Source of the DNA: Planctomycetota bacterium
GTDB taxonomy: Bacteria > Planctomycetota > Phycisphaerae > Phycisphaerales > SM1A02
Length of the DNA: 42,359 nucleotides
Reading direction: 5' to 3'
NCBI GenBank assembly: GCA_027618565.1
Contig: JAQCEQ010000023.1
Span: 1 to 42,359, forward strand
The notes below the pieces were generated by a model. That model saw only the letters and a program-made list of their open reading frames with translations, did no database searches and had not been told where the DNA came from. Shown here one piece after another: positions 17,609 to 21,059 of this stretch. Both the position numbers and the translations under genes were made by a program. Numbering within the stretch: the first letter of the stretch is position 1; each line of letters opens with the position of its first letter.

Positions 17609-18310
17609 TCAGCGCGGCATCCACCGAGCCGCCCACCCAACCGTCTTGCGCTCCACCAACGGCAGCGCGAGGGCGCCGAGGCCACCCAGCACGGCTCCCG
17701 TGGCGATGTCGATGATGTGGTGCTCGTGCACGAAGTAGGTGGCCGCGCTCACCGCCGCCGCCCATGACCAGAGCCACACGCCCGCACGGGGGCCCCACCG
17801 CGGCGCCAGCGCGGCGGCAATCATGATCATGTAGGTGACATGCAGGCTGGGCGCGTAGCCGCCCGCTCCGGGATCGGGCGCGCCCACCATCGCCGCGAGC
17901 GGTGCCCACACGCCCGAGCCGCCCTCAAAGCCGAGCTGCATCGGGAAGAGCGCAAAGCATGTCGCCGCGACGATGACCTGCGCGAGCATGACGATGACGA
18001 CCGGGAGATAGTCGCGGACATTGCGATACGCCAGGAAGAGCAGCGCGACCGCCAGGTCCTGCGAGACATAGATCGGCACCATCCAGGGGAGGAACGGTGC
18101 GGTGCGTTCGAAGTCAAAGTAGGGCTGGGCCGGCGACTGGTCGGAAGTCGCGATCGTGCACCCGATGGTCCACACGGTGCCAAACCAGAGCAGGTAACCC
18201 ACCTGGAACAGCCCCATCGGGAGCAGGCGTGCGGCCGTCCACGGAAGTGAGGCGAGCGGAACACGCCGTGCGTCGTCGCGAGTGGAGTTCGCCCGCCGTC
18301 CCGGAACCAT
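17609..18310 (-). CDS. PAP2-superfamily (Aur1/IPC-synthase-like) membrane protein
   Basis: A membrane protein with about six helices. It carries two hallmark motifs of the PAP2 superfamily, in the form seen in the Aur1 or inositol-phosphorylceramide-synthase-like branch: P-S-L-H-V at 154-158 and H-E-H-H-I-I-D at 195-201. The predicted role is phospho-lipid phosphatase or head-group transfer at the membrane. The start is uncertain. The frame is open to 18610, but that would run through the divergent fluoride-channel gene. ATG 18310 shares bases with the ATG of that gene, and ATG 18217 would remove 31 residues while keeping the helices. I give the longer form (233 residues). It is convergent with metH, 10 bp apart. 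Confidence 0.75.
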   Translation of the reverse strand: MVPGRRANSTRDDARRVPLASLPWTAARLLPMGLFQVGYLLWFGTVWTIGCTIATSDQSPAQPYFDFERTAPFLPWMVPIYVSQDLAVALLFLAYRNVRDYLPVVIVMLAQVIVAATCFALFPMQLGFEGGSGVWAPLAAMVGAPDPGAGGYAPSLHVTYMIMIAAALAPRWGPRAGVWLWSWAAAVSAATYFVHEHHIIDIATGAVLGGLGALALPLVERKTVGWAARWMPR

Positions 18311-19271
18311 GAGCGTGACGGCGGCGTCGGGCATCGGCGTAGTCTCTGCCGTCTTGGCGATCGACGCAAGTGACATCGTTCCGCTGGCGGTGTCGACCGC
18401 CGCTGGCGTGGCACTTCGCGTGGCGATGCACGCCTTGGACGACCGGTGCGGCCGCCCGCGCTGGAAGTCGACCCTCTGGTGCAATGTGACGGGCTGCGTG
18501 CTTGCCGGGGCCGTCTTGGGGCAGACGGCAGGGACGCCGCTGGGGAATCTCACGGAGGACCACCGGCGGATCTGCGTGTGGCTCATGGCGATCCTCGGTG
18601 GGTTCACCACCTACAGTGGACTCTGTCTGGACACCATCCACTTGGCCAGGGCGCGGCGGGCCGCGGCGTCGGTCACGGTGCTGGTGTTCACGGTTGTCGG
18701 TGGGGTGTTCCTGGCGGTGTGGTTTTCTCGGCTGCCCGTGACTGTGGCGATCATCGTGCCGCCGATGCTCTGGCTGGTTCTGGGGGTCCCGTGGCGCCCT
18801 CGTGCATCGCGAGAGATGGCTTCCCGCCCGGCTCCCGAGGATGCCGTGGCCTCACTGCGCCCGATTCAGCCGCAACCACTTCGCGCGACGGCGGGGATGG
18901 CCCTCATCGCGGCAACGGGCGGCCTCTTCGGCGGGGCCGTTCGACTGGCGGCGGACCCCTTGCTGGCCGGCGTCGGCGTGGCGCATGCCGAAAGGTGGTC
19001 GATGCTCGGTGCCAACCTGGTGGGCGCTGCACTCATCGGGGTGGTGGCGGCGCGATGTTCTGGCGCGCACGCTGGGGCATTCTGGAGGACGGGATTCTGC
19101 GGGGGCCTGACGACGGTGAGTGCGCTGGCGACGCTGAGCGCCTCCGCCACGCTGGACGGCGAGCGATCCGCTGCGATGACACTGCTCATCGTGAGCCTGG
19201 TCGTTGGACCGACGCTCACGCTTGCGGTCGAGCGTGCAAGCGCTCCGACGGCAGCATTCACGCCGCGCTAG
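18309..19271 (+). CDS. CrcB/Fluc-family protein, two fused domains with linker helix
   Basis: A 320-residue membrane protein containing two CrcB (Fluc fluoride channel) units. Domain 1 (about 22-138) has the Arg motif G-V-A-L-R (Arg37), the pore Asn in W-C-N-V-T-G (Asn59) and G-G-F-T-T-Y-S-G-L (97-105). Domain 2 (about 193-309) has G-G-L-F-G-G-A-V-R (Arg212), A-N-L-V-G (Asn236) and G-F-C-G-G-L-T-T-V-S-A-L (262-273). A hydrophobic segment at about 143-161 lies between them, making roughly 4+1+4 helices, the layout of eukaryotic FEX. Most bacterial Flucs are single-domain dimers of about 125 residues. The usual Phe-box positions are Tyr102/Leu105 and Val270/Leu273, so channel activity is not certain. 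The start is ATG 18309 rather than an in-frame GTG at 18282. The next gene begins 9 bp downstream. Confidence 0.8.
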   Translation: MSVTAASGIGVVSAVLAIDASDIVPLAVSTAAGVALRVAMHALDDRCGRPRWKSTLWCNVTGCVLAGAVLGQTAGTPLGNLTEDHRRICVWLMAILGGFTTYSGLCLDTIHLARARRAAASVTVLVFTVVGGVFLAVWFSRLPVTVAIIVPPMLWLVLGVPWRPRASREMASRPAPEDAVASLRPIQPQPLRATAGMALIAATGGLFGGAVRLAADPLLAGVGVAHAERWSMLGANLVGAALIGVVAARCSGAHAGAFWRTGFCGGLTTVSALATLSASATLDGERSAAMTLLIVSLVVGPTLTLAVERASAPTAAFTPR

Positions 19272-19280
19272 AGTGGCGCG

Positions 19281-21059
19281 ATGCCGAGCGAGCCCACACG
19301 ACGCATCAGCCTCCACACTGCGGCGGAGCTGAGGCAACTCTGGAAGCCGTTGCGGGATTCGTACGCGCAGGCGCACCTGTATGAGTCCACGCGCGTGCGA
19401 CTCCACCGTGCGTTCACGTGGCTTGAGGCTGCGGAGTCGGCCGCTTCCGCCGATCACTCGCTGCGCCTCCTGGCCGCTTGGTCCGCGCTTCTGGCGATGG
19501 CCTCGAAGTGGGACCAGTCGACGCACGCTCCGGAGCGCCCGGAGGTGTCACTGCCCTCGTTTCTCAGCTCCCTGCGAAGGGTGGACCACGACGGCGTGCT
19601 CCATGAACTGGTCGCGCTGCGGGGACCATCGCTCCAGGCGATGGTGAATGATTCGTACATCGCGGGAGTCATGGGCGCGGCCGGCACGACGCCCGGCACG
19701 TCGCCCACACGCGGGGCGCCCGACCTTCTCGACCGCGCCACGCGCGTGATCGCGGTCGTGTGGCGACAAGTGGCCGAGGGCGGCACCGCGCACGACAGCG
19801 CGCCGATGCGCGAGGTCCTCTCTCGGTGTGCGGCGGTCACCCTGGACCTGGCGCTCGCGGCCATCCAGATCGTCACGCACCATGGCTATGCGGAGAACTG
19901 GGGACCACTGTGCTATCCGCCGACGGGAGGCTCGTCGGAGGCGCCGTGCACCTCGCGGGGCGGCCCAGCCTCGACGGCGTGGGCGGTATCCGTGGCCGTC
20001 GCCACAGCGGTTCTGGTGGCGAGCACTTCGATGGCAGCGCCCGATGCTGGAGGTGTCGAACCGTCCAGCGCCGGCGAGGCGATGCAGGCCTGGGGTCGAT
20101 TGATTGGTCGATTGCATCTGCTGGTGTTGCACTTTCCGCTCGCGCTGGTCCTGGTCGCGGTCGGTGCGGAGTGCTGGCGCGTCATGCGCCGGGTGCCCGG
20201 GCTGTCTCCACTGACCCCGCCGTTGGTGGCGATCGGTGCCGCGGCCAGCGTCGTCGCCGTGGTGACGGGGTGGTTCTTCGCGGCGAACGACGGTGACGAC
20301 GGGTCATCCACACTCTTTCTCCATCGATGGGGCGGCACGGCGTGCGCGGCGCTCCTCCTTTGGCTTTGGTGGGAGACACGCCGATGCGCGAGGGTCTCGG
20401 AGGCGGCCGTGGACCATGGCATCAGGGCAGGCGGTGCCGGAGGTTGCACGCGGACGCGTTGCATACTGGCCGCCGCCGGAGTCATGATTGCAGGCGTTGG
20501 GTACTTTGGCGGAGAGATGGTGCACGGCGACGGGTTTGTCGAGGAGGCTCTGGAGCGAGCACTGCGAGAGACCTTCGATGGCGAGGAATCGCCACGAGCA
20601 CGCGGGGACAGCATCCCGCAAGGCAGTGCCCAGCTCGTTGCCTCCGAGCAACACGCCGGTTCCAGTCCCGGCGTCGTCGACTTTGCGCGCGACATCCAGC
20701 CGATCCTGGCTGAGCGGTGCGTGGAGTGCCACGGCCCCAAGAAGAAGAAGGGCCAACTGAGCTTTGACCCTGTGACGGACGCCTTGGCATGGCGACCGAA
20801 GTCCGGGTCCGGCCCGCTGGTCATCGAACCCGGCTTCCCAGGGAGGAGCCTCATGATCGAGCGCGTGCAACTCCCCGCCGACCACGAGGATGCAATGCCA
20901 CAGGGGGGCGAGCGCCTGACGCCAGCGCAGGTGGAGGTGCTCAAGGCGTGGATTGCGGGGGGGGCTCTGGTTCCGCAGCGTGCCGAAGCGCCGACCGACC
21001 TGGCGTCGCCACCTGTTGCAGCCCGGGATCCTGCGCCAGCGGTTCCACCGGCTCCCTGA
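19281..21059 (+). CDS. HEPN-like helical domain fused to DUF2231-like membrane region and planctomycete cytochrome c domain
   Basis: A 592-residue frame with three parts. Residues 1-212 are soluble and helical (Y-E-S-T-R-V-R-L-H-R-A-F-T-W-L-E-A-A-E), loosely like HEPN proteins. At 233-249 there is a hydrophobic stretch followed by S-M-A-A-P-D that reads exactly like a signal peptide. Residues about 270-410 are a DUF2231-type four-helix membrane region (G-R-L-H-L-L-V-L-H-F-P-L-A-L). Residues 466-572 are a planctomycete-type cytochrome c domain (D-F-A-R-D-I-Q-P-I-L-A-E-R-C-V-E-C-H-G; haem motif CVECH 480-484). The internal signal-like stretch suggests two genes joined in frame; no stop or frameshift is visible. 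It begins 9 bp after the fluoride-channel gene, and its last 119 bp overlap the convergent gene at 20941-22407. Confidence 0.65.
   Translation: MPSEPTRRISLHTAAELRQLWKPLRDSYAQAHLYESTRVRLHRAFTWLEAAESAASADHSLRLLAAWSALLAMASKWDQSTHAPERPEVSLPSFLSSLRRVDHDGVLHELVALRGPSLQAMVNDSYIAGVMGAAGTTPGTSPTRGAPDLLDRATRVIAVVWRQVAEGGTAHDSAPMREVLSRCAAVTLDLALAAIQIVTHHGYAENWGPLCYPPTGGSSEAPCTSRGGPASTAWAVSVAVATAVLVASTSMAAPDAGGVEPSSAGEAMQAWGRLIGRLHLLVLHFPLALVLVAVGAECWRVMRRVPGLSPLTPPLVAIGAAASVVAVVTGWFFAANDGDDGSSTLFLHRWGGTACAALLLWLWWETRRCARVSEAAVDHGIRAGGAGGCTRTRCILAAAGVMIAGVGYFGGEMVHGDGFVEEALERALRETFDGEESPRARGDSIPQGSAQLVASEQHAGSSPGVVDFARDIQPILAERCVECHGPKKKKGQLSFDPVTDALAWRPKSGSGPLVIEPGFPGRSLMIERVQLPADHEDAMPQGGERLTPAQVEVLKAWIAGGALVPQRAEAPTDLASPPVAARDPAPAVPPAP

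Follow-up and report, generated by a model that had tools for sequence, protein, structure and literature searches.

A single-chain bacterial CrcB/Fluc protein with two fused domains and a probable inversion helix in Planctomycetota

A member of the Planctomycetota encodes two CrcB (Fluc) domains in one polypeptide chain, connected by a hydrophobic linker. The gene occupies positions 18309 to 19271 on the forward strand of the window, i.e., the whole stretch of 42,359 nucleotides that was analyzed. We favor, with a probability of about 55% for the statement as a whole, the interpretation that its product is a single-chain antiparallel protein of the Fluc family that arose from a fused gene pair and lets fluoride exit through an altered pore. 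An adjacent crcB1-crcB2 pair, of the type still present in relatives, would have been joined through loss of the boundary between its two genes, and a linker spanning the membrane, producing a 4+1+4 arrangement of helices, would set domain 2 upside-down relative to domain 1. The linker would then cross the membrane between a domain 1 oriented N-out and a domain 2 oriented N-in, and the halves would pack as in a Fluc dimer. Fluoride, at a guess, may still exit the cell passively by way of an altered pore; of the two, Pore I, contributed by Thr, Asn and Asp of domain 1 and Val of domain 2, would be the one keeping more polar residues. The fused 4+1+4 architecture with its inversion helix is, taken by itself, highly probable.

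The reading frame is free of stops from either GTG 18282 or ATG 18309 down to its stop at 19271, and encodes 320 aa when read from the ATG. The start codon is uncertain between these two and TTG 18354, and the latter may be the true one, given that the opening codons of the frame overlap the conserved 5' end of a divergent PAP2-like gene (17612–18334, reverse strand) found also in another species of the same genus (G001; 70%). Residues 5–18, a short hydrophobic stretch, fall within this overlap and show few synonymous changes. Between 18282 and 18366, Ks amounts to 0.11 over 19 codons, versus about 1 elsewhere in the comparison of the two species (G000 and G001); overlapping coding and a shared control region are the candidate readings of this low value.

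A search of the window's genome with the PF02537 profile returned exactly two matches, both inside 18309–19271. The two halves scored 49.3 and 45 bits, above the cut-off of 32.9, and the whole fused protein reaches 81.9 bits in Pfam. The two CrcB units announced by the original prediction are thus present. The NCBIfam equivalog TIGR00494 (fluoride efflux transporter CrcB) gave 49.2 bits, below its cut-off of 80.45, which points to a divergent member of the family; NCBI's CrcB models describe single-domain proteins. The halves barely resemble each other (24% identity over 99 columns by BLASTP), and both carry G-x-x-x-R in TM1, the Asn of TM2/TM7 and GG-x-TT-x-S in TM3. Domain 1 (residues 20–140; 18366–18728, forward strand, as for all features of the gene) has helices at 20–47, 51–74, 83–99/102–114 and 118–140, with the motif G33-x-x-x-R37 at 18405–18419 and Asn59 of TM2 at 18483–18485, preceded four residues earlier by Thr55 so that TxxxN is kept. 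Domain 2 (residues 191–311; 18879–19241) has helices at 191–221, 227–249, 253–267/270–282 and 286–311, and Met replaces the Thr four residues before Asn236 of TM7 (19014–19016).

Whether this protein still conducts fluoride depends on the reading of its pores, for which residues were assigned according to PMC5417652 and the T39-E88-Y104 triad of Fluc-Bpe was taken from PMC8315801. The Phe box (F82/F85 in Fluc-Bpe; F80/F83 in Fluc-Ec2) is absent. As anticipated, its positions hold Tyr/Leu in TTYSGL and Val/Leu in TTVSAL: Tyr102 and Leu105 in the TM3 motif TTYSGLCLD of domain 1 (18606–18632), in which Asp108 occupies the Glu88 position, and Val270 and Leu273 in the TM8 motif TTVSALATL of domain 2 (19110–19136), in which Leu276 does so. 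Pore I would accordingly be built of Thr, Asn, Asp (Glu88), Val (Tyr104) and Leu (F85), with Val (F82) supplied by domain 2, and Pore II of Met (Thr39), Asn, Leu (Glu88), Leu (Tyr104) and Leu (F85), with Tyr (F82) supplied by domain 1. Judged by these residues, Pore I seems to retain more polar groups and Pore II to be the more damaged one. This is not the pattern of FEX, in which Pore II is conserved (PMC5417652) and Pore I vestigial. In an unfused tandem pair of a relative, G026 (L041), the F82 positions are occupied by Tyr and Val, as in the window protein; hence the decay of the Phe box may predate the fusion.

A serious competitor, which we rate as quite possible, is that the fused Fluc fold no longer conducts fluoride at all and is kept for a structural or sensory role or for the transport of another solute. 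No Phe occupies any Phe-box position and the T-E-Y triad is damaged in both pores, and in Fluc-Ec2 the similar substitutions F80Y, F80L and F83L abolish transport, whereas F80M does not (PMC5636608). The suggestion that conduction may differ or be lost can therefore be made more strongly than it was in the original prediction. Moreover, the half better conserved between the two species is domain 2 (67% identity, Ka/Ks about 0.15), the main supplier of the worse pore. Against a non-conducting fold, both halves retain G-x-x-x-R, the Asn and TT-x-S, another role is not suggested by any partner or pathway, and yeast FEX, in which Thr, Glu and Tyr are required, is more tolerant of the loss of a pore Phe (1.4-fold for F330A, 11-fold for F96A; PMC5417652). 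A search for fluoride riboswitches found none in the window or in the whole genome, a result that also favors a non-conducting fold. A CLC-F antiporter was considered as the real fluoride exporter and rejected, as the sole CLC found has an ordinary filter, which we take from its motif to be of the Ser type. If the organism exports fluoride through a known family, the fused CrcB is the only candidate found. Altogether, physiologically useful fluoride conduction by this protein seems to us slightly short of an even chance.

The antiparallel single-chain interpretation further requires that the linker cross the membrane. The best hydrophobic window between the domains covers residues 143–161 (LPVTVAIIVPPMLWLVLGV), within a probable inversion helix at residues 142–161 (18732–18791). 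This segment scores 0.9 on a simple biological hydrophobicity scale on which the other TM helices of the protein range from -1.6 to 2.2, and its counterpart in the sister species scores -0.6. Shuffling of the linker residues reached the observed score in 135 of 20,000 trials for the window's species and in 11 of 20,000 for G001; the two linker helices are only 32% identical, yet hydrophobic in both. An AlphaFold2 model (mean pLDDT 73.8, pTM 0.61) presents 4+1+4 helices, TM3s broken as in Flucs and a linker helix at 142–158, and a second, poorer run on six two-domain rows (pLDDT 58.0, pTM 0.51) retained this helix at 145–158. The single extra hydrophobic segment and the 4+1+4 layout had both been foreseen, and the modeling agrees with them at low to moderate confidence, the linker pLDDT being about 35–68 in both models. 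The fold of domain 2 matches that of Fluc-Ec2 with a Z of 11.6 over 119 residues. Neither model is reliable as to how the halves pack against each other. The top Foldseek match of the whole model was Candida FEX (E 1.1e-3), with unrelated transporters close behind; the VMAT/MFS-like matches were set aside as effects of poor domain packing.

Loop charges suggest that the halves are antiparallel, as in eukaryotic FEX. Domain 1 has seven Lys and Arg residues in loops 1 and 3 versus two in loop 2 and, together with the Arg-rich loop 5 that follows the linker (residues 162–190; 18792–18878; predicted to be cytoplasmic by the positive-inside rule), would place domain 1 N-out, run the linker from outside to inside and leave domain 2 N-in. 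This topology rests on domain 1 and loop 5, since the charge bias of domain 2 is weak and slightly of the wrong sense (2 vs 0). The linker helix and the charges of domain 1 and loop 5 thus fit an antiparallel arrangement, next to a weak domain 2 bias and unreliable model packing. Alternatively, the linker could be a surface or re-entrant helix, with parallel halves or a dimer of fused chains as the active unit. The low pLDDT of the linker is compatible with this, and fusion without an obvious linker helix does occur in genus g42 (see below). We nevertheless consider it improbable: the segment has TM-range hydrophobicity in two divergent species, an Arg-rich loop follows it directly, and parallel engineered fusions are minimally active (PMC3755343). 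The arrangement that defines FEX, a single chain in which a TM helix links two CrcB domains, is predicted for the window protein.

An origin from a tandem pair is supported by the relatives. Among the 181 genomes of the same family that were searched, most of those bearing CrcB gave two matches, typically adjacent crcB genes on the same strand. The original prediction took bacterial Flucs to be usually homodimers; this did not hold here, as heterodimers encoded by adjacent genes are known (PMC3755343, PMC11139923) and most often represent CrcB in this family, which makes the window gene the fusion of an existing pair. In a domain tree of 136 columns with moderate support, computed with FEX sequences left out, half 1 groups with the first genes of pairs and the first halves of the g42 fusions (SH-aLRT 94), and half 2 with the second genes of pairs (SH-aLRT 88). 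The proposal that each half descends from its own gene of the pair is supported by this, but not strongly. Synteny is partial: metH precedes the fused crcB in g42 as in the window, while the PAP2-like gene lies between them only in the window's genus. Following crcB in both is a gene with a shared N-terminal domain, which relatives with an unfused pair also keep; in the window it spans 19281–21059 (forward strand) and combines a DUF2231-like membrane part with a PSCyt1 cytochrome. This gene begins 9 bases after crcB, and its N-terminal ~214 aa adjoin crcB across the family. The frequency of tandem pairs, the grouping of the halves and this partial synteny indicate that an inherited crcB pair was fused. 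A eukaryotic FEX gene gained by horizontal transfer is very unlikely, despite the common architecture and the match of a profile of the fused bacterial proteins to Candida FEX over both domains (E 2.6e-10): the halves group with the bacterial tandem genes of the family (in the tree without FEX sequences), the locus shows conserved synteny, and the pattern of pore conservation is unlike that of FEX.

The sister species G001 carries the same in-frame fusion in a 361-aa open frame. Over 294 aligned codons, the two fused proteins are 58% identical, with Ka 0.37 and Ks 1.07; the fused gene is under purifying selection, which speaks against its being dead. No CrcB match was obtained in the genus's third genome, which is 88% complete. 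Neighboring crcB genes occur often in the family and the window's genome is a draft of 62 contigs, but an error of sequencing or assembly that merged two genes, a danger pointed out in the original prediction, can be dismissed as far as sequence allows, because the fusion recurs in the separately assembled G001, at 58% identity and with the same hydrophobic linker design, Ka is well below Ks and the frame has no stop.

Fused CrcBs are not confined to this genus. Among about 390 genomes of the phylum, two further ones from one other class, G434 and G400, encode CrcB fusions in intact single frames, the former of 339 aa with a strong linker (LFLAPVIAGVAALVVVLAL) and the latter of 321 aa with a weaker linker segment. 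In G372 (L099), of the same genus as G400, the halves are read in separate frames, which adjoin at a strongly hydrophobic linker, through either a frame shift or a sequencing error. The pore residues of G434 and G400 appear largely canonical: in the former all Phe-box positions are aromatic, and the latter has a single Met among them, the substitute tolerated at F80. Directly upstream of crcB in all three genomes lies a fluoride riboswitch (RF01734, 50–52 bits; G434, L095:791-856; G400, L100:864-942; G372, L099:2399-2476, reverse strand). Loop and linker charges suggest for these proteins a domain 1 oriented N-in and a domain 2 oriented N-out, the reverse of the window protein. Hydrophobic linkers, largely canonical pores and upstream riboswitches in G434 and G400 indicate that natural single-chain Flucs exist in bacteria, and the riboswitch-linked fusions are the best evidence that such proteins probably serve against fluoride. 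A plasmid search with the G434 fusion found no place covering 80% of it.

In the related genus g42, all 17 CrcB-bearing genomes have fused CrcBs of 275–325 aa in one frame (L034, L035, L101-L107, L109-L111, L114, L117, L118, L120, L121, L129:3917-4792), with halves of opposite charge bias and no convincing linker helix. One of them, G139 (L109), has a 275-aa fused frame from 1459 in which domain 1 appears to lack its fourth helix; three helices in domain 1 would by themselves invert domain 2. Approximately unbiased (AU) tests rejected neither the monophyly of every fused first domain (p 0.42) nor one origin of the g1 and g42 fusions (p 0.91). That the riboswitch-linked fusions and those of the window's lineage are independent is not proven by the tree; the case for it comes from the opposite charges of their loops, from synteny and from relatives that remain unfused. 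We see it as an evenly balanced proposition that the FEX solution arose within bacteria on at least two occasions, pairs giving rise to antiparallel single-chain fluoride channels through a captured inversion helix, with riboswitch control in one lineage, decayed pores in that of the window and opposite orientations.

With eukaryotic FEX, known from yeast Fex1p and from the cryo-EM structure 9OP1 of the Candida albicans protein, the window protein shares two CrcB domains, a linking helix and unequal pores. FEX, however, keeps Pore II with its Phe, Thr, Glu and Tyr and loses Pore I, whereas Pore II is the worse one here and both lack Phe, and the window halves group with bacterial tandem genes (tree without FEX). 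The likeness to FEX initially proposed consequently stands for the fused 4+1+4 architecture and its probable inversion helix and fails for the pores; it is a fair likeness of layout and does not make the protein a member of FEX. Tandem heterodimeric Flucs, such as the Lactobacillus La1/La2 type and the pairs of this family, likewise consist of two diverged adjacent units with opposite charge bias expected, but are two separate proteins without a linker helix; a tandem crcB pair is the likely direct ancestor of the window fusion. Two Fluc domains and a TM inversion linker are also found in Laf-TM and in fused Fluc-Ec2 concatemers (PMC3755343, PMC4969038), which are man-made, use the glycophorin A helix and have intact pores. 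Among the engineered fusions, the one joined by a TM linker works as a fully active channel, unlike those whose linkers are hydrophilic (PMC3755343). The G434 and G400 fusions, single-chain bacterial CrcBs with a hydrophobic linker like that of the window, differ from it in their largely canonical pores, upstream riboswitch, probable opposite orientation and class. A different protein family, DUF606, offers a parallel: in the account of Lolkema et al. (2008) given in PMC3962082, its two-domain proteins stand beside single genes and pairs, the fused forms being antiparallel and divergence preceding fusion.

Fused Flucs have been placed only in eukaryotes (Stockbridge et al.), a division kept in a 2024 review (PMC11139923). 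The literature searched yielded no report of natural bacterial CrcB fusions, although an earlier mention is possible. Described to date in fungal and plant fluoride channels, the fused layout is now seen in a bacterium. The Fluc family serves to model how a dual-topology homodimer becomes an inverted-repeat protein, and within one bacterial phylum single genes occur beside pairs and beside fusions, some of which have an obvious inversion helix and some of which do not. The step by which a TM linker is captured, the "evolutionary gymnastics" of PMC3755343, becomes directly testable in bacterial proteins, among which the riboswitch-linked fusions would be natural counterparts of the engineered concatemers. 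Finally, the window protein raises the question of how far the pores of a Fluc may decay under continued selection.
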